This document shows, in pieces, positions 38,039 through 48,590 of a stretch of 64,000 nucleotides of DNA. The notes under the pieces were generated by a model. It was given only the letters and a program-made list of their open reading frames with translations. It was not told where the DNA came from and did no database searches. The position numbers and the translations under genes were made by a program. Source of the DNA: Desulfoplanes formicivorans (lineage in GTDB: Bacteria > Desulfobacterota > Desulfovibrionia > Desulfovibrionales > Desulfomicrobiaceae). The first letter of the stretch is position 1; each line of letters begins with the position of its first letter. The DNA lies in contig NZ_BDFE01000004.1 of assembly GCF_001748225.1 (NCBI RefSeq), positions 1-64,000 of the forward strand, given 5' to 3'.

Positions 38039-38114
38039 CGTTACACGGATGCTGGAAATGCAAGGAGTTGCAGATCAGTTGGGCGGGTTGCACCTCCCGT
38101 AACGTGATTTTTTT
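38039..38114 (+). ncRNA. Possible structured leader RNA ending in a T-run
   Basis: CGTTAC (38039-38044) can pair with GTAACG (38099-38104) to close a domain. Inside, CTG and TGCAA (38052-38063) pair with TTGCA and CAG (38068-38078) around a GGAG loop. CGGG (38084-38087) can pair with CCCG (38096-38099), which competes with the closing stem. Seven T follow at 38108-38114. The arrangement resembles a riboswitch or attenuator, but it matches no family that I can name with confidence, and it lies 300 bp upstream of the molybdoenzyme gene. Confidence 0.3.
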
Positions 38115-38412
38115 CCCGATCAAGGCGAGACAGTCCCGGAGAATAACGCTTTCTGCTGTTCTCTGGCGCCTGTTTTTTCACGAATACAGACTTTTTCATC
38201 CCAATGATTACCTTGGAAGAGAAACCACGTATTGGTTGAGGAATTCCAAGGACACGGACCTCCCCTTCGCCCCCCTGTGTTGTGACTTCAGGAGAATCGG
38301 CAACCTCCAGGCACCCCAAGGGCACCCCGCAAACGACCTGCCGTCCTCAACCCGCACGCGGAAAAACAACCCGGGTTTTCCGTACCCCTTACCATTCACG
38401 GGAGGAGCATCC

Positions 38413-41199
38413 ATGAACGTCACGGCACTCAACCATCGGGCCACCATCTACCGGTTTCTGGCAACCCTGTTCCGGGATGAACCTTGCCTGGAACACGTTA
38501 CATCCTTTGCTCCGGGAGGTATTGCGGACACAATCGCTTCTGCAATGTCCACCCAGCCTCCTCTTGCCTCCTGGTTACAGCAATTGACAGCATTTCTGGA
38601 CACCGCTTCCCCCCAGGACCTCCTCAGGGAACTGCGTTACGAATACGCCGATCTGTTCCTCAACGCCGGACCTTCCCCGGTTTTTCCCTATGCATCCGTA
38701 CATGTTTCCAACATTCCCGTGGTTCAGCAGGAACCCCTGTTTCAGATGCGCCAAACCCTGCGAACCCTTGAGCTGCATGTTGATCCGGAGTTCAGGGATC
38801 TGGACGAACATGTCAGTGTGACGTTCGAGATATGCGCGATCCTGCTCGAACGGGAAGAGCTGGAATCCTACGACCATTTTCTCTCCTCAAACATCATGAA
38901 ATGGGTGCCCGCGTTTTGCGACCAATTGGCCACTAACGCCCAGTCTCCCTTCTACCGCGTATGGGCCGAAATCTGTCGCTGGTTCCTTGAAAAGGGTGCC
39001 CGACTCAACACCGAGGCCGGCATTGAACCCATCCTTGCGACCCTGGCTCAAGGACTGGCCGGGGCAGATCTTCTCGGACCAGGCCCCCTGCTGCTCCCCG
39101 GAGCCCAAGCCCCCCTGCCCGATCAGGACATCCCCACCCACTGCTATACCTGCGGGGCCCTGTGCGGCATGACCGCCAAGGTCAGGGACGGGGTTCTGAT
39201 CAAGGTGGCCGGGCTCAAGGGTGATCCCAAGGGAGATGGGAGGCTCTGCCCCAAGGGAGGGGCCGCCACCAAACACGTCAACAGCGCCTATCGTCTCAAG
39301 GCCCCGCTGATCAGGGAAAACAACCGTTTTCGCAAGGCCAGCTGGGACGAGGCCCTGGACCTGGTCGCGGCCAGGCTGGCAACCATTCCCCAAGGCAAGC
39401 TGGCCTATTTCCGGGGCAATGATTTTGCCGGATTCGTGCACGAGACCTTTTTCGATCACCTGGGCTGCCCCAAGGGAACACACCGGACCATGTGCGACAA
39501 CTCCAACCGCATGGCCAACGAACACAACCTGAACGACAAGCGCCCATGGATCAATTACCAGCAGTCCGATTACATCATTCTCTTTGGCAACAATGAACTG
39601 GCCACCTCCTATGGCCAGCGCAAGACCGCCCAACTCAAGGCAGCCCTCAAACGGGGCGCCAAACTGGTTGTTTTTGATCCCCGCAAGTCGGAAACAGCCG
39701 CCAAGGCAACCACCTGGATTCCCATCAAGCCGGGAACCGACGGTGCAGCCGCCATGGCCATGGCCTATGTGATCATCACCGAAGATCTGTACGACAAGGA
39801 TTTTGTCCGGAACTGGACAACGGGTTTCAACGCCTTTCGGGACCGCATTCTGGGCAGGGAAGACGGGGTGGCCAGGACACCACAGTGGGCCGAGGCCATC
39901 TGCGAGGTTCCGGCCAAAACCCTGCAGACCATTGCCCGGGAATTTGCAGGGGCCACGGCCAAGGGCGTCATGTCCTGGTCGGGACTGGCCCAGACACCCA
40001 ACGGACACTGGGCAACCGCCGCCATTCAGGCATTGAACGGATTGTGCGGAACCTTTGACGCGCCTGGCGGCCCGTGTCTGCCCTGGAAACGCAAGCTGGG
40101 CTCAGCTTGGAGGGACGGACAGGTCAAACCGGAAAAACGGCCCTCACCCAAGATGGACCATTTTCAGCTCTGGTCGGGCTGGTCCCCGGCCAAATTCGAA
40201 GAACACGTGGCTGACGGCCGCATCAAGGGGCTTGTCTCCTACTGGGCCGATCCCGTTCTCACGTGGGGGAATACCGAATCCGTGACCCGCGGGATCAGGG
40301 GACTTGACTTCTGCGTGACCATTGATGCTTTCATGTGCAATACCGCCCTTGAAAGCGACGTGGTCTTGCCCGATGCCACCTGGCTGGAGCAGAGTCAGAT
40401 CAAATCCGACTGGCTGTACGAGGCGTTCCTGAGTTATTTTGCCCAGGTGGTCAAACCCATGTACGACAGTCGTCCCATGTACCGCATTGTTCAGGGGCTG
40501 GCCGAGCGCATGGGGGTCAAGGACGCCGTGCCCTGGAAAACCATGGACGAGGCCTTTGCAAACCAGATGCGCGACCTCCCCTGGGATTTTCAGGATCTCA
40601 AAAAGCAGGGCTTTCTCATCACCAACCCGGCCTCCTATTACAAATACAAGGAGTGGGGATCCATCAATCCCCCCAAGGGATACGGCAGTTCAGGAACAAG
40701 CCGCACCGGCAAGTACAATTTCCTTAATCCGGTGAGCCTTGAAAAGGGAGTGGATGCCCTGCCCGATCACAAGGAAATCGACCCCCGGTTTGCCCCGGAC
40801 ACGGAGTTTCCCTTTATCTTCGGCAATTTCAGGATTCTGCAGCATGAACATTGCTCCACCTTCAACAACTACCAATTGATGAAGCTCAGGAAAACCAACA
40901 CCCTGATCATGAACAACGAGGATGCCCTGCGCCTGGGCATTGCACCCGGCGAAACCGTCACCATTGCCTCGCCCTGGGGAAAGATCAACATCAGGGTTGA
41001 ACCCACGCCGGACATGAAACCGGGAGTTTTGGGGGCGGCAGGAGGCTACGGCCATGTGCGGGGCCTTGAGGGCGATGCCGCGTTTCCGGATTTTGGCGGA
41101 GTCAACGTGCCCGGAGCGCTCATGCCTCCCAATGTCACCGAACCCACGGGCGGCACCCCCTTGCTCAAATACATCAAAGCCAAAGTGATCAAGGCATGA
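38413..41199 (+). CDS. TorD-type chaperone fused to molybdopterin oxidoreductase
   Basis: A 928-residue protein with two parts normally made by separate genes. Residues 1 to about 205 are a TorD/DmsD-type redox-enzyme maturation chaperone (helical, with ELRYEYADLFLNAGPSPVFPYASVHVS). From Cys244 a bis-MGD molybdoenzyme follows: the [4Fe-4S] motif CYTCGALCGM with GRLCPKGG, a probable Mo-ligand Cys361 in RTMCDNSNRMANEHN, FGNNELATSYGQR, and a C-terminal cofactor-binding domain (NNEDALRLGIAPGETV). There is no Tat signal, so the enzyme should stay in the cytoplasm. The ATG at 38413 has a GGAGGAG site. No electron-transfer subunit is adjacent; the substrate is unknown. Confidence 0.9.
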   Translation: MNVTALNHRATIYRFLATLFRDEPCLEHVTSFAPGGIADTIASAMSTQPPLASWLQQLTAFLDTASPQDLLRELRYEYADLFLNAGPSPVFPYASVHVSNIPVVQQEPLFQMRQTLRTLELHVDPEFRDLDEHVSVTFEICAILLEREELESYDHFLSSNIMKWVPAFCDQLATNAQSPFYRVWAEICRWFLEKGARLNTEAGIEPILATLAQGLAGADLLGPGPLLLPGAQAPLPDQDIPTHCYTCGALCGMTAKVRDGVLIKVAGLKGDPKGDGRLCPKGGAATKHVNSAYRLKAPLIRENNRFRKASWDEALDLVAARLATIPQGKLAYFRGNDFAGFVHETFFDHLGCPKGTHRTMCDNSNRMANEHNLNDKRPWINYQQSDYIILFGNNELATSYGQRKTAQLKAALKRGAKLVVFDPRKSETAAKATTWIPIKPGTDGAAAMAMAYVIITEDLYDKDFVRNWTTGFNAFRDRILGREDGVARTPQWAEAICEVPAKTLQTIAREFAGATAKGVMSWSGLAQTPNGHWATAAIQALNGLCGTFDAPGGPCLPWKRKLGSAWRDGQVKPEKRPSPKMDHFQLWSGWSPAKFEEHVADGRIKGLVSYWADPVLTWGNTESVTRGIRGLDFCVTIDAFMCNTALESDVVLPDATWLEQSQIKSDWLYEAFLSYFAQVVKPMYDSRPMYRIVQGLAERMGVKDAVPWKTMDEAFANQMRDLPWDFQDLKKQGFLITNPASYYKYKEWGSINPPKGYGSSGTSRTGKYNFLNPVSLEKGVDALPDHKEIDPRFAPDTEFPFIFGNFRILQHEHCSTFNNYQLMKLRKTNTLIMNNEDALRLGIAPGETVTIASPWGKINIRVEPTPDMKPGVLGAAGGYGHVRGLEGDAAFPDFGGVNVPGALMPPNVTEPTGGTPLLKYIKAKVIKA

Positions 41200-41228: not shown

Positions 41229-41260
41229 CCACAAGCGGCCCGCTTACGGGCCGCTTGTGG
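41229..41260. terminator. Bidirectional terminator hairpin
   Basis: CCACAAGCGGCCCG (41229-41242) pairs perfectly with CGGGCCGCTTGTGG (41247-41260); the loop is CTTA. It separates the fusion oxidoreductase from the convergent selenoprotein gene. Confidence 0.75.
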
Positions 41261-41292: not shown

Positions 41293-41916
41293 TCACCCCT
41301 TGCCCCGTACCGTGCCCTGGACAAAATCACGCAGCACTTCAAGGGGATGCGCACCAACCAGCCGTTGGCCGTGGGCCACAAAAGTGGGGGCGGCCATGAT
41401 CCCCAATGTACTGGCCCTGGCCAGATCCTGATCCACAAGGTGTTGAAAGGTGCGGGCCTCAAGCACCTCTTGCGCCTCTTTCCGGGGAAGACCCAGCTCC
41501 CGGACCAGGTCCAGAAGCACTCTGGTGCGTCCCAGATTTCTGCCTTCCACAAAATAGGCCGCAAAGACACGCTTCCCAAATGGCGTGCCCAGGCCGTACC
41601 GTTCCCCTGCCCAGGCCCTGAGTTCATGGGCCCACCTGGTGTTGCAGATCATATCAACAGGCTCGAACTCCAGCCCCCTTTCCTTGGCGAGGGTCCTCAA
41701 TGAGGCCAGCATGGCGGGGACATCGGCGTGGGGATCACCCATAAATTCCTGAAGAGTCATACCCTCTTCAGGGATCTCCTCATGCAGTGGAAGGGCCCGC
41801 CAGACGATTTCAATGCCATATATATCATGCAGTTGTTCAATACACCCGGTACTGAAATAGCACCATGGTCAGGTAAAATCGGAAAACACTTCCAGACGGT
41901 GGGGTACATGTTTCAT
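41293..41916 (-). CDS. DsbA/FrnE-family thiol oxidoreductase, predicted selenoprotein (UPWC)
   Basis: A 207-residue DsbA-fold protein if the in-frame TGA at 41871-41869 is read as selenocysteine. The N-terminus reads LEVFSDFT, then TGA, then PWCYFSTG: Sec16 sits where FrnE relatives have the first Cys of CPWC, and Cys19 is the second. After it come IEIVWRALPLHEEIPEEG, FGKRVFAAYFVEGRNL and the cis-Pro segment MAAPTFVAHGQRLVGAHP, all family-typical and uninterrupted. A possible bacterial SECIS hairpin lies just downstream of the codon. Ordinary gene calling starts at Met 41760 and loses the active site. The ribosome site is weak, and ATG 41928 is an alternative start. A true nonsense mutation is the main rival. 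Confidence 0.8.
41836..41856 (-). promoter_or_regulatory. Candidate bacterial SECIS element
   Basis: On the minus strand, 12 bases after the TGA, TTCAGTAC (41856-41849) pairs with GTATTGAA (41843-41836) in eight pairs, one a G-U, with the five-base apical loop CGGGU. Position (loop about 21 bases after the UGA) and a short G/U-containing loop agree with the hairpin that SelB recognises in bacteria. Confidence 0.55.
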
Positions 41917-42198
41917 ACAAACGTCCATGACAGGTTTGATGGTTTGCCAAATGGTCTGCCACATGGAATATGCTCACACCTGCTGTTGTTTCTCCGGCAG
42001 ATTGCGACCATGAAAAACAGCCGTTGCTAATAAAAACGAATGGTTGATCGCTGCACCAACGCCAACTCTCTGACTTTCCGTTGATTTTTTGTCCTTTCAA
42101 TGGCAATATCGAACACTTCATGACGAATGGTTCGTGCGGACCATCTCCCATGCGCCTGAAACCGATAGGTTTACTCCTGGCGCAACAAGGAATCCTCC
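41917..42198. other. Divergent intergenic region
   Basis: 282 bp between the selenoprotein gene and the first hybrid kinase. No gene is supported; both promoters should be here. Confidence 0.4.
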
Positions 42199-44802
42199 AT
42201 GGGCACATCCCCACATATCATCCTTATCGATATAGACTACCAAATCCCTTCAGATACGACATCCATCCTGCAAAACGCGGGATATGCCGTCAGTGTCGTA
42301 AAAAATGGCACCGAAGCCATGGCCAAAATGCGCGCGATGGCTGCCGACATGATCCTGACCCCCTATAGGCTTCCGGACATGAATGGGGACCAGCTCTGTC
42401 AGAAGATCAGAACCGCTACGGATATGGACCCCATTGCCGTGGTCATGTTCGCCCCTCGCGAGGGTTCCCCCCTGGAGCATGCCCAACTTCTGGCTGCCGG
42501 GGCCGATGGATACATCCCCTTTCCCCTTGATCAGGAAGATTTTGTCCTGCGCATCAGATCCATTCTGAAAGTCGGTAAACTCCAATCTTCTCCCGAAAAC
42601 GCCAATGAAGATTATCGGGAGATGCTCGAGACGACACCGCTACCCTACCAGAGCCTCAACGCCAACGGTTGTCTCGTCCAGGTGAACAGAGCCTGGCTCA
42701 CCACCCTGGGCTACGAGCACGAAAAGGAAGTGCTTGATCGTCCATTCAGCGATTTTCTGCCCTCAGGAGAGGCAAAGCTTTTTCCCCAGCGATTCCAGCA
42801 TTTCAAGCAATCCGGCCAGCTCTGCTGTGTACAGTTCGAAATGCGCAAAAAGGACGGCTCAATCATCCGGGTCAGCTTTGACGGTCGTATCGCTAGAGAC
42901 ACAAACGGTGAGTTCATCAGAACCCACTGCATCTTCCAGGAGATCAAGGCAAGGCAGCACCTCCAGGAACATGCCCTTTTCGAGCCCAAACCTCTGCAAG
43001 CGTCCTTTTGGAAAACCCTGGCCGGATCGGTCTTCTTCTTCATGACGGGAGTGACCCTTCTTGCCCTGATGTTTGCCCCCATTTCCAGCAGAGAATGGCA
43101 GATCAGCCTTGCCCTGATCGGTCTGATCATGGTTGTGGCCGTAGTCGGCTCCTTCTACTTTGTACGGAAAATGCTGGCCATCATTGAGTATTACCACAAC
43201 GAGGTCGACCAACGCGAACACTCCCTCAAACTCATCAGCGAAAATCTTGAATCCCAGGTGAAACAACGGACTCAGGAACTGACTCAAAGTGAACGCAGAT
43301 ACCGTACCTATGTATCTTCATCGCCACTGGCCATCCTGGTTACCGACGCAACAGGCCGGTTCGTGGATGTCAATCCAACCGCTTGCAGCCTGCTGGGGTA
43401 CTCCCAGGACGAATTCCTGCACATGGCTGTTCCGGATATTCTCGATCCCGACCACAAACAGCGGTGTCGGGAAGGGCTCAACACCCTGATGCACCACTCC
43501 AGGCTGAGTGACGAATATGTCTTTCTCCACAAAAAGGGGACCAAAATCCCTGTCAGCATGGAAGGCGTCACCCTTGAAAACGACAGCTATCTGTTTTTTT
43601 GCCAGGACATATCCCAACGCAATGCCATGCAGGAAAAACTCCGGCACACCGAAAAACTCCGGCTGGAAGAATCCATGAAAATGCAGAAGCTGGAAAGCGT
43701 GGGCACCCTGGCAGGTGGTATTGCCCATGACTTCAACAACATTCTCATGGGCATCTTCGGAAACATCGAACTGGCCAAACACAGCCTCCCTTCGGCCCAT
43801 CCATCCCGCGACTTCCTGCACAAGGCGGAACGCTCATTGGACAGGGCGGTCCACCTGAGCAAGCAGCTTTTGACATTTTCCAAAGGAGGAGAACCCATCA
43901 AGGAAACCACGGGATTGGCAGACCTGCTCAAGGATGTGGCCCGGTTCGACCTTTCGGGAAGCCCGGTCAAGCCCATGTTCACCATAGATCCGGATCTCTG
44001 GGACGCCTCTGTGGACAAAGGCCAGATCCAGCAGGTCTTCTCCAACCTGACCATCAATGCCAAACAGGCCATGCCTGACGGAGGCAATCTGTACTTCAGG
44101 CTGGAAAACCGTGTCCTTGCTGCCGACGAGATTCCCTCACTCGCCCCGGGAAAATACATCCGCATCACGGTCAAAGATGAAGGGACCGGTATTCCTTCCA
44201 GACACCTTTCAAGGATTTTCGATCCCTACTTCAGCACCAAGCAGACAGGAAGCGGCCTGGGCCTGGCCACCGTGTATGCCATCATTTCCAAACACAAGGG
44301 GCATATTGCGGTTGAGACCGAACCGGACAAGGGCACGGCCTTCACCATCCATTTGCCCGCCTCCACAAGAAATGCGGCCGAACAGGCTCATCCACCATCA
44401 CTCCAGGACATCACCCCAACGGGCCAGGGACGCATCCTGATCATGGATGACGAAGAACTGATTCGCGGAGTCATGAAAGAGATGCTCTCAACCCTGGGAT
44501 ATGACGTAGACACAGCATCAGATGGACAGAAAGCGCTGTACCTGTACAGGCAGGCCATGGAAGCGCGCACCCCCTACGACGCGGTAATCATGGATCTGAC
44601 CATTCCTGGAGGAATGGGTGGCAAGGAAGCCATCTCGCATCTTCTGGACATGGATCCCGAAGCCCGGGCCATTGTTTCCAGCGGATTCGTTGCCGATTCG
44701 ACCATGTCCCAGGCCAAACAGTACGGGTTCAAGGCCGTGATATCGAAACCGTACACTTTGAAAACCCTTCATTCTGTTTTGAGCAAGGTTATCGCCGCAT
44801 GA
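42199..44802 (+). CDS. Hybrid sensor histidine kinase, REC-PAS-TM-PAS-HisKA-HATPase-REC
   Basis: An 867-residue kinase. A receiver-like domain (1 to about 125) has lost its phospho-acceptor: the site reads MILTPYRLPDMNG, with Pro where Asp belongs. A PAS domain (about 135-255) follows, then two membrane spans (about 275-295 and 302-322), a coiled coil, a second PAS (about 372-480), the phospho-acceptor His510 in GGIAHDFNN, an ATPase domain (KDEGTGIPSRHLSRIFDPYF, GSGLGLATVYAI) and a C-terminal receiver with Asp799. The signal is unknown. The C-terminal half closely resembles that of the next kinase. Confidence 0.92.
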   Translation: MGTSPHIILIDIDYQIPSDTTSILQNAGYAVSVVKNGTEAMAKMRAMAADMILTPYRLPDMNGDQLCQKIRTATDMDPIAVVMFAPREGSPLEHAQLLAAGADGYIPFPLDQEDFVLRIRSILKVGKLQSSPENANEDYREMLETTPLPYQSLNANGCLVQVNRAWLTTLGYEHEKEVLDRPFSDFLPSGEAKLFPQRFQHFKQSGQLCCVQFEMRKKDGSIIRVSFDGRIARDTNGEFIRTHCIFQEIKARQHLQEHALFEPKPLQASFWKTLAGSVFFFMTGVTLLALMFAPISSREWQISLALIGLIMVVAVVGSFYFVRKMLAIIEYYHNEVDQREHSLKLISENLESQVKQRTQELTQSERRYRTYVSSSPLAILVTDATGRFVDVNPTACSLLGYSQDEFLHMAVPDILDPDHKQRCREGLNTLMHHSRLSDEYVFLHKKGTKIPVSMEGVTLENDSYLFFCQDISQRNAMQEKLRHTEKLRLEESMKMQKLESVGTLAGGIAHDFNNILMGIFGNIELAKHSLPSAHPSRDFLHKAERSLDRAVHLSKQLLTFSKGGEPIKETTGLADLLKDVARFDLSGSPVKPMFTIDPDLWDASVDKGQIQQVFSNLTINAKQAMPDGGNLYFRLENRVLAADEIPSLAPGKYIRITVKDEGTGIPSRHLSRIFDPYFSTKQTGSGLGLATVYAIISKHKGHIAVETEPDKGTAFTIHLPASTRNAAEQAHPPSLQDITPTGQGRILIMDDEELIRGVMKEMLSTLGYDVDTASDGQKALYLYRQAMEARTPYDAVIMDLTIPGGMGGKEAISHLLDMDPEARAIVSSGFVADSTMSQAKQYGFKAVISKPYTLKTLHSVLSKVIAA

Positions 44803-44924: not shown

Positions 44925-47900
44925 ATGCCCTCATTACCCCCGCTCTCGCAAGCTTCTCGCCTTGTCTTCTTGCGCATGGTTCTTGCTGTTGCCTTCGGAC
45001 TGACCGGATTTGCCGTCAGTTTTCTCGACTTCCAACTTCCCCAGACGACAACGTTCTCCATAAGTATTTTCATGGGCCTTTTCTTCCCCCTGGTCATTGC
45101 CCTGGCCTGGGGATGGCGGTACGGCCTGCTCAGTGCCCTGGCCGGCGGGTGCCAGTCCATGTGGTGGATCTGGCATGCAGACGGCTGGGGCCTGTTATAT
45201 ACGGTGCCAATCTTTTTCCTCTGGATCGGTTGGCATGGCTGGTGGACTACCATGAGAAGCAGGGGCAACGGCCACTATCCATGGTATCAATCCGTTTTCA
45301 TCATTGAAATTCCCTTCCGCATAATCAGCGAAGCGGGCTTTCTCACCCTGTTCACCTGGCTGGTCTCCCTCAATCCCCCGCCGTGGGCACCAACCCTCGC
45401 GTCCAACGAAGTGTCTCCTGGCACAATGCTCGGAGCGGCCTTTGATCACACGATCGCCGGGTACATGCTTCTTCTCCTCGCCCATACCGTGCTCCATCTC
45501 ACCAGGGTACGCCAGGCTCTGGGACTTACGGACAAGACAGTCCAGAACGACATATCCACCCTATATGCCAGCTCCATCTTCATCGGATTGACAGTCTGGG
45601 CCGTGGACTCCATGCTCCATCTCAAGTTCGGGAATACGGATCATGCCACATTCTGGCAGGTGGCCCTGTTCGATCCGGGTCCCCATCTCTTCATACGCAT
45701 CGCATTCATCTTTTTCGCCCTGTGCGGCGCCATTGCCGTGACCCCAATGCTCCGCAACCGGGAACGGCTCCAAAAACGCGTCATGCATCTCAACCATGTT
45801 CTGGACGGCCTGCACAAAGTCAACAGGATTATTGACCGGGTCAAGGATCCCCACGATCTGATCAATGCCATTTGCGACCAGCTTGTCCAGGTGGAAGGCT
45901 ACCTCTCGGTATGCATCTTTCGACTGGATGCCCAGGGTGAATACATGGATTACGGCCTTGCAGGGGCCCCAATGCACCAGCGCCCACCCGTACTGTGTAC
46001 TCATGGTCGCAACGCCATAACCTCCCAGAATCTTCTTGTGGCGCAACACCATGTGGACACATGCACCGATTGCCCCTTCCGGAACAACCAGACGCCCATA
46101 GACACACCTCTGGGCTGCCTTGCCCATCCCATAACGTACAGGGGCACGACCTATGGAGCGCTGGTGGCGTCCCTTCCCCTGGACCGCGCGCTGGACGTGC
46201 AGGAACAATATCTTTTCAAGGAGATTGCAGCGGACATTGCCTTTGCCCTGCACAGCCTGGAAGAAGAGGCCGAACGGCGCCTGGCCGAAATAGCTCTGCG
46301 CGAGAGCGAGCAACGATTCAGCCAGCTCCTCGACAGCGTACCCGAGGTAGCGGTTCAGGGATATGGAGCCGATGGAACCATCCGTTACTGGAACAAGGCC
46401 AGTGAAATGATCTACGGATATACGCGGGACGAGGCCATTGGCCGCAAATTCCACACAGTCATCCCCGCATCCATGCACGAACAGATCTCAGACATCATGG
46501 CCGCGGGAACCCAGAACCATCACATGCCTCCACCTCAGGAACGGACATTCACAAACAACCACGGCGAGACCATCACCGTCCTGACAAGCCACACCATGGT
46601 CGTTCGCACGGGACAGGACTCCGAGCTGTACTGCATTGATATCGACCTCAGGCAACGCAAGCAGACGGAATCACGTCTCATGGACAGCAAGGCCGAGATC
46701 CAGAGCATTTTCCGATCGTCTCCCGTGGGTATCGGGCTGGTCCAAAACAGGATTTTCACCCGTGTCAATCAACGTTTTTGTGAAATGCTCGGATACACGG
46801 AAGAGGAACTCCTGGGGAAACCTTCCTCCATGATCTATCCTTCCCGGGAAGAATTCCATCGTGTTGGCCAGGAAAAATACGCCTTGATCCGAAAAACAGG
46901 CACAGGAACCGTCGAGACCCGTTTTCTGCATAAAGACGGCTCCATCCTCCACGTCCTTTTGAGCTCGACGCCCCTGGATATGGACGACCATGCCAAGGGG
47001 GTCACGTTCACGGCCCTGGACATCACCGACAGGAAACAGGCTGTGGACGCCCTGCGTCAGAGCCAGGAACACCTCAAGACAACCCTGCAATCCATTGGCG
47101 ACGCCGTTGTGACCACGGACCATCAGACCCGGGTGATGACCATGAACCCGGTGGCCGAGGCCCTGACGGGATGGACGCAGGACGAGGCCAGGGGTCTTCC
47201 CCTTCGGAAGGTTTTTCCCATTATCAGCGCCATGGACCGCAAGGAATGCGAAAACCCGGCAGCCAGGGCCATGAGCCAGGGCACCATTGTCGGACTGGCC
47301 AATCATACCCTGCTCATTGCCAAAGATGGCAGGGAACGTCATATTGCAGATTCTGCCGCTCCCATCCGCAATCTTGACGGACAGATCACCGGAGCGGTTC
47401 TGGTCTTTCGGGATGTCACCCAAGAATACCGCATGCGCAGGGAACTGCAAAAAATGGATAAGCTCGAAAGCCTGGGCAAACTGGCTGGCGGGCTGGCCCA
47501 TGATTTCAACAACATTCTCATGGCCATTTACGGAAACATTGAACTGGCATCGAGCCATTTCGCACCCGACCATCCCGCGCGCACCTTCTTGGACCACGCC
47601 GGACAATCCATTGACCGGGCAACCAAGATCACCAACAAGCTGCTCACCTTTTCCAAGGGGGGCAGCCCGGTCAAGGAGCGTCTTGCAGTGGCCTCCCTGG
47701 TCCGGGAAATCGTTGGCTTCGACCTTTCCGGAAGCGGTGTGAAAGCCGTTTTCGACATCCCGGACAATCTCAGGGACATAGAGGGAGACAGGGGGCAGCT
47801 GGAACAGGTCTTTACCAACCTGACCGACAATGCCAGGCAGGCCATGGGGGATGAAGGTACCCTGTACGTGACCATAGCCAACCAACAGGTCGCAGAGCAT

Positions 47901-48590
47901 GAAGTAGCAGGACTGCAGTCCGGCCCCTATGTCACCCTGGTGTTCGAGGATACGGGTCCAGGTATCGCTCCCGAACATGTGGGCAAGGTGTTTGATCCCT
48001 ATTTCACCACCCATCAGACCAGATCGGGCCTGGGCCTGGCCACGGTCTATTCCATTATCTCCAAACACGACGGCATCATCACGGCCGAATCCCGGAAGGG
48101 ACAGGGCGCGCGGTTCACCATCTATCTTCCGGCCCTGGACGCGCCCCAAGACCAGGTTCATGCCCCATCCACCCGGGCTGTCACGGAGGCACCACGCCCC
48201 ACGCATTCCCCAACCCCACGACGCATACTGATCATGGACGACGAGCCCATGATCCGGGATGTTCTCACCGCGCTGCTTGAGGCCCTGGATTACGAAGTCG
48301 AAAGCACCGTTGACGGCGACCAGGCCGTGACCGCCTACAAGGACGCCATGGAAGCGGGTTCACCCTTTGATGCAGTCATCCTTGACCTGACCATTCCCGG
48401 AGGCATGGGTGGTGCCAAGACGATCCAGCAGCTCTTGCGGATTGATTCCAACGTCAGGGGCATTGTCTCCAGCGGATATGCCGATGATCCGATCATTGCC
48501 AGGTTCCAGGACTATGGATTCAAGGGAGTGGCCATCAAGCCCTACACCCTGGAGGAACTCGGCAACACGCTGGACACGGTGCTGGGATAA
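44925..48590 (+). CDS. Hybrid sensor histidine kinase with membrane sensor, GAF and three PAS domains
   Basis: A 1221-residue kinase. About seven membrane spans occupy residues 15-275 (MASE-like sensor), then a GAF-type domain (about 290-445) that contains a cysteine group (CTHGRN, DTCTDCPF), three PAS domains (about 455-580, 590-705, 712-835), phospho-acceptor His859 in GGLAHDFNN, the ATPase domain (EDTGPGIAPEHVGKVFDPYF, SGLGLATVYSII) and a receiver with Asp1154. The signal is unknown; the cysteines could sense redox state or bind a metal. It lies 122 bp after the first kinase on the same strand, and no separate response regulator is nearby. Confidence 0.92.
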   Translation: MPSLPPLSQASRLVFLRMVLAVAFGLTGFAVSFLDFQLPQTTTFSISIFMGLFFPLVIALAWGWRYGLLSALAGGCQSMWWIWHADGWGLLYTVPIFFLWIGWHGWWTTMRSRGNGHYPWYQSVFIIEIPFRIISEAGFLTLFTWLVSLNPPPWAPTLASNEVSPGTMLGAAFDHTIAGYMLLLLAHTVLHLTRVRQALGLTDKTVQNDISTLYASSIFIGLTVWAVDSMLHLKFGNTDHATFWQVALFDPGPHLFIRIAFIFFALCGAIAVTPMLRNRERLQKRVMHLNHVLDGLHKVNRIIDRVKDPHDLINAICDQLVQVEGYLSVCIFRLDAQGEYMDYGLAGAPMHQRPPVLCTHGRNAITSQNLLVAQHHVDTCTDCPFRNNQTPIDTPLGCLAHPITYRGTTYGALVASLPLDRALDVQEQYLFKEIAADIAFALHSLEEEAERRLAEIALRESEQRFSQLLDSVPEVAVQGYGADGTIRYWNKASEMIYGYTRDEAIGRKFHTVIPASMHEQISDIMAAGTQNHHMPPPQERTFTNNHGETITVLTSHTMVVRTGQDSELYCIDIDLRQRKQTESRLMDSKAEIQSIFRSSPVGIGLVQNRIFTRVNQRFCEMLGYTEEELLGKPSSMIYPSREEFHRVGQEKYALIRKTGTGTVETRFLHKDGSILHVLLSSTPLDMDDHAKGVTFTALDITDRKQAVDALRQSQEHLKTTLQSIGDAVVTTDHQTRVMTMNPVAEALTGWTQDEARGLPLRKVFPIISAMDRKECENPAARAMSQGTIVGLANHTLLIAKDGRERHIADSAAPIRNLDGQITGAVLVFRDVTQEYRMRRELQKMDKLESLGKLAGGLAHDFNNILMAIYGNIELASSHFAPDHPARTFLDHAGQSIDRATKITNKLLTFSKGGSPVKERLAVASLVREIVGFDLSGSGVKAVFDIPDNLRDIEGDRGQLEQVFTNLTDNARQAMGDEGTLYVTIANQQVAEHEVAGLQSGPYVTLVFEDTGPGIAPEHVGKVFDPYFTTHQTRSGLGLATVYSIISKHDGIITAESRKGQGARFTIYLPALDAPQDQVHAPSTRAVTEAPRPTHSPTPRRILIMDDEPMIRDVLTALLEALDYEVESTVDGDQAVTAYKDAMEAGSPFDAVILDLTIPGGMGGAKTIQQLLRIDSNVRGIVSSGYADDPIIARFQDYGFKGVAIKPYTLEELGNTLDTVLG

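Follow-up and report, generated by a model that had tools for sequence, protein, structure and literature searches.

An FrnE-type gene of Desulfoplanes formicivorans that very probably encodes an active-site selenocysteine

A gene on the reverse strand of a 64,000-nucleotide stretch of Desulfoplanes formicivorans DNA (contig NZ_BDFE01000004.1, positions 1 to 64,000; below referred to as the window) is, with a probability of about 0.97 as judged from sequence comparison, a genuine selenoprotein gene in which the UGA at codon 16 is read as selenocysteine (Sec). The encoded protein belongs to the FrnE group of the DsbA family, carries the active-site motif U-P-W-C and is rather likely to be a stand-alone disulfide reductase or isomerase.

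DsbA-like selenoproteins with a UxxC motif (COG2761) were found in Sargasso Sea data in 2005 (PMC1088965) and listed for Desulfovibrio desulfuricans and other organisms in 2006 (PMC1794560), three DsbA groups of selenoproteins were given in 2008 (PMC2398784), and a "DsbA-like protein form 1" is found in the table of a 2026 review (PMC13188914). The window protein shares with this family (COG2761/PF01323) the Pfam assignment, Sec as the first residue of UxxC, a predicted SECIS element with guanosines in the apical loop and widespread Cys homologues, where the likeness is to the published descriptions and does not imply membership of a particular clade (U-P-W-C, U-P-F-C or neither). Literature searches on "UPWC" selenoproteins and on FrnE selenoproteins yielded no dedicated paper. 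DsbA-like UxxC selenoproteins being already known, the novelty of the window gene is modest; what is added here is a U-P-W-C clade that is spread through the phylum and falls below every NCBIfam cut-off.

Reading frame and active-site codon

The full coding sequence (41293-41916, reverse strand) extends from an ATG at 41916 to the stop codon TGA at 41295-41293, i.e., 207 codons and a stop, and its sole interruption is an in-frame TGA at 41871-41869. This TGA is codon 16 and provides the U of U-P-W-C, in which Cys19 (41860-41862, reverse strand) is the presumed resolving cysteine; the other cysteines of the protein are residues 25 and 91. A second in-frame ATG is located at 41928, and the start of a relative from the same genus corresponds to 41916.

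Without readthrough, the called open reading frame covers 41293-41760 and encodes 155 residues that start at Met 41760. Against the Pfam DSBA profile (PF01323) this shorter frame scores 60.3 bits and covers the profile only from position 59, whereas the frame read through the TGA scores 102.6 bits (curated cut-off 25.6) and covers positions 2-190 of 191, i.e., reading the TGA as a residue regains a complete DSBA domain. The original prediction, in which the called frame lacked the N-terminal strand and the active site of its family, and in which a start at 41916 restored a 207-residue product with U16, agrees with these matches and coordinates. A product consisting solely of the 155 residues, for which the ATG at 41760 offers a start, is highly improbable, because it would miss strands 1 and 2 of the thioredoxin fold along with helix 1 and the active site, all of which are conserved across homologues.

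The selenocysteine column in homologues

Homologues were found in 37 of the 297 genomes of the class (E 1e-15) and in 83 of the 395 genomes of the phylum (E 1e-12), the latter being about a fifth. The active site was read in 81 homologues, from which one with Ser (L003) and a remote one with Cys (L005) were left out, leaving 79 for comparison. At the exact column of U16, 59 of these genes have TGA and 20 have Cys, and the TGA is found at this column across the class and the phylum, in many families; the TGA-bearing genes that were tabulated each have one in-frame TGA and no second. Most homologues inspected in the phylum use Sec. The original prediction had placed the TGA at the position of the first active-site Cys and had named U/C pairs at this column as a check, and such pairs are indeed abundant in the relatives.

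The sole relative found within the same genus (G677) has kept U-P-W-C and is 61% identical to the window protein over 100 residues of a gene that is cut by a contig end. The identity includes 10 of the 14 residues before the TGA and 26 of the 36 residues between the TGA and Met52. In the other 20 genomes of the same family that were searched the gene is absent.

A lone in-frame stop that shortens the frame found by a standard gene caller is also what would be expected of a pseudogene, or of a Cys gene in which the TGA is a sequencing error. Such an origin is, however, exceedingly unlikely for the window gene, because the same TGA is shared by 59 homologues that span many families and include the one from the same genus, the rest have Cys, and the residues that flank the TGA on both sides are conserved. 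That close relatives have TGA rather than Cys, and that the gene is otherwise undamaged, upholds the earlier proposal of a selenoenzyme rather than a pseudogene.

A predicted SECIS hairpin downstream of the UGA

The hairpin UUCAGUAC-CGGGU-GUAUUGAA (41836-41856, reverse strand) is predicted to be the bacterial SECIS element for UGA codon 16. It comprises eight base pairs and the G-rich apical loop CGGGU, and its stem starts 12 nt downstream of the UGA. When the window strand is folded, the energy of the hairpin is in itself unremarkable (z -1.39 for the core and -0.22 for 60 nt); because this single-window energy is not significant, the assignment rests on covariation in register.

The covariation was scored for 23 distinct Sec genes, hand-picked for variety, against 500 shuffles. 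In the register of the window gene 90.2% of the cells are paired compared to 75.8% after shuffling, and the covariation score is 0.433 compared to 0.183, where the scores are inflated by the relatedness of the sequences; none of the 500 shuffles reaches either the score or the paired fraction. When the register is slid, at most 51% of the cells are paired and the covariation is at most 0.231. Six of the eight pairs change on both sides among the 23 genes. For example, pairs 1, 4 and 6 are U-A, A-U and U-A in the window and G-C, G-C and C-G in many U-P-F-C genes, while pair 1 is C-G in the same-genus relative. The 11 Cys genes, in the same register, are paired no better than their shuffled versions (62.5% vs 62.7%). 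A poorer fit to the register is seen for one gene (L081) and for a small sub-clade (L114, L115, L119-L121). An Rfam scan of the window returned nothing.

Selenocysteine machinery

A complete machinery for Sec insertion, i.e., selA, selB, selC and selD, had been named as a further check on the assignment. In the genome of D. formicivorans selA, selB and selD are all found together with a tRNA-Sec (82.4 bits, anticodon UCA), which accounts for selC. The SelD of this genome (L053, C17:78963-79883) has an in-frame TGA at AAG-U-AAK and is itself a candidate selenoprotein; UxxK is the site listed for Sec-containing SelD (PMC13188914). With this TGA in SelD, the genome must already decode one UGA as Sec.

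Of the 75 homologue-bearing genomes tested, 73 have SelA. One of the two exceptions (G210) has a TGA homologue as well as tRNA-Sec and SelB, and its selA is perhaps inside an assembly gap. In the other (G330), which has a Cys homologue, none of tRNA-Sec, SelB and SelA was found above the cut-offs. Most Cys-bearing genomes retain SelA, and a switch between Sec and Cys therefore needs no loss of the machinery.

On the basis of these components, the UGA at codon 16 would be translated by means of the genome's own SelA, SelB, SelD and tRNA-Sec, where SelB would bind the hairpin just 3' of the UGA and bring Sec-tRNA to the ribosome, such that Sec would be inserted at residue 16.

Phylogeny and switching between Sec and Cys

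A tree was constructed from 77 homologues, with two near-duplicates left out and the Sec/Cys column masked. It contains a U-P-W-C clade (SH-aLRT 99) of 40 rows, 38 of which have Sec, and a U/C-P-F-C clade (SH-aLRT 95) of 30 rows, mostly from the order of the window's own organism, with Sec in 19. Well-supported branches force at least seven changes between Sec and Cys, and this repeated switching makes the family good material for studies of why selenium is retained or lost. In one case the Cys gene of G330 (L110) is the sister of a Sec gene (L122, from G651), i.e., here Cys accompanies the absence of the Sec trait. In another, a Cys gene (L030, from G099) that lies among Sec sisters (L033, L035) has kept the same hairpin with 7 of 8 pairs, which is likely the fossil of a recent change from Sec to Cys.

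The window gene and that of its genus-mate are grouped together (99) within the U-P-W-C clade, of which the remaining members come almost entirely from other families of the phylum. This placement, together with the absence of the gene from the rest of its own family, makes horizontal transfer or repeated loss likely in the history of the gene. A tentative and rather speculative extension is that proteins with U-P-W-C make up a selenoprotein subfamily of their own across the phylum, separate from both the U-P-F-C proteins and classical FrnE, in which Sec might be retained for a specific task, e.g., the handling of selenium compounds or persulfides in a sulfidic environment.

Fold and relation to known families

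An AlphaFold2 model of the full protein, calculated with a 51-row alignment, has a mean pLDDT of 95.2 and a pTM of 0.90. In the model a strand (residues 7-12) is followed by residue 16, located immediately before a helix (17-33), and by a second strand (36-41). The redox motif [U/C]-P-x-C is present in all 51 aligned rows, where site 16 is U or C and sites 19 (Cys) and 177 (Pro) are invariant. Pro177 (41386-41388, reverse strand) is found in an A-P-T-F loop and is expected to face the active site; it is presumably the cis-proline that positions substrates in this family.

A profile search of solved structures gave FrnE of Deinococcus radiodurans as the top match (E 1.5e-47), a search with the single sequence also gave FrnE (E 1.2e-18), and in a fold search FrnE was first (TM 0.80), followed by SCO1869, DsbM, HCCA isomerase (2-hydroxychromene-2-carboxylate isomerase) and kappa GST. 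The assignment to the FrnE/DsbA family in the original prediction is thus borne out by both the sequence and the predicted fold; COG2761 is what we take to be the FrnE group.

The best match in sequence and fold, D. radiodurans FrnE (DR_0659; PDB 5co3, 5cnw), has CP(W/F)C at the same place, but with Cys rather than Sec. It also has a C-terminal CX4C motif of its own, which contributes to the regeneration of the Deinococcus enzyme; the motif was looked for in the window protein and is absent. CX4C occurs in many but not all members of the FrnE subfamily and is not defining for it, because the FrnE proteins of S. roseofulvus and D. maricopensis are also devoid of CX4C.

In an NCBIfam scan the window protein stayed below the cut-off of every model, and just two models, both of other families, matched any of the 51 homologues. 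As no model reaches its cut-off, gene callers that stop at UGA yield a fragment without the active site. The DsbG-like (seleno)lipoprotein of the Rcas_1661 type (NF041057) is also a thioredoxin-fold selenoprotein with UxxC, but it matches the window protein weakly, over the C-terminal part (26.8 bits, cut-off 190), and is a lipoprotein, whereas the window protein has no visible signal sequence.

Probable function

Because no signal peptide is visible, with the first strand beginning at residue 7, the window protein is probably cytoplasmic. For D. radiodurans FrnE a role as a disulfide reductase of the cytoplasm has been proposed; in vitro the protein displays isomerase activity and reduces insulin, and its mutant shows sensitivity to both diamide and cadmium (PMC8945050). 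A similar activity of the window protein, operating in the direction of reduction or isomerization, would involve attack of the Sec16 selenolate on a disulfide or another oxidized sulfur or selenium species. The resulting mixed selenenyl-sulfide could then be resolved by Cys19 with formation of an internal Se-S bond, after which the enzyme would be regenerated by some cellular reductant. In the absence of CX4C from the window protein, this regeneration must differ from that of Deinococcus FrnE.

The same overall fold is found in HCCA isomerase and kappa-class GST, and the gene stands alone, with no adjoining thioredoxin or Dsb partner. Both observations would also fit a selenoprotein in which the selenol acts on small molecules, such as selenium or metal compounds or glutathione conjugates, in a manner similar to these two enzymes. 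This reading appears unlikely, yet it deserves some weight. HCCA isomerase and kappa-class GST score lower than FrnE in both sequence and fold, FrnE being the closest family by either measure, and [U/C]-P-x-C is retained in every aligned row, whereas in an HCCA-type homologue the redox pair is replaced by S-P-Y-S. A disulfide reductase or isomerase is therefore the preferred assignment.

Gene neighborhood and other features of the window

Among 20 loci that were compared, no conserved neighbor that would hint at a substrate or a reductant was found, and the gene appears to stand on its own. In the window its neighbors are a hybrid histidine kinase gene, in divergent orientation, and a molybdopterin oxidoreductase gene, in convergent orientation. 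A molybdopterin oxidoreductase adjoins the gene both in the window and at one other locus (L094); a shared operon was considered and rejected, the identity being merely 25%.

A perfect 14-bp G+C-rich inverted repeat with a 4-nt loop, read from the sequence at 41229-41260, lies between the two convergent genes and is possibly a bidirectional transcription terminator or a repeat element. It has no T run and was not reported by a terminator scan that demands one.

TorD/NarJ-type chaperones are usually separate proteins. In the frame at 38068-41199 (forward strand) such a domain (residues ~117-311) is fused in-frame to the molybdopterin oxidoreductase (355-1035), and the ATG at MNVTALNHRATIYRF is probably where this frame truly starts. 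Two hybrid sensor histidine kinases with tandem receiver domains are encoded at 42199-44802 and 44925-48590 (forward strand), the second of which also has multiple PAS domains and one GAF domain.
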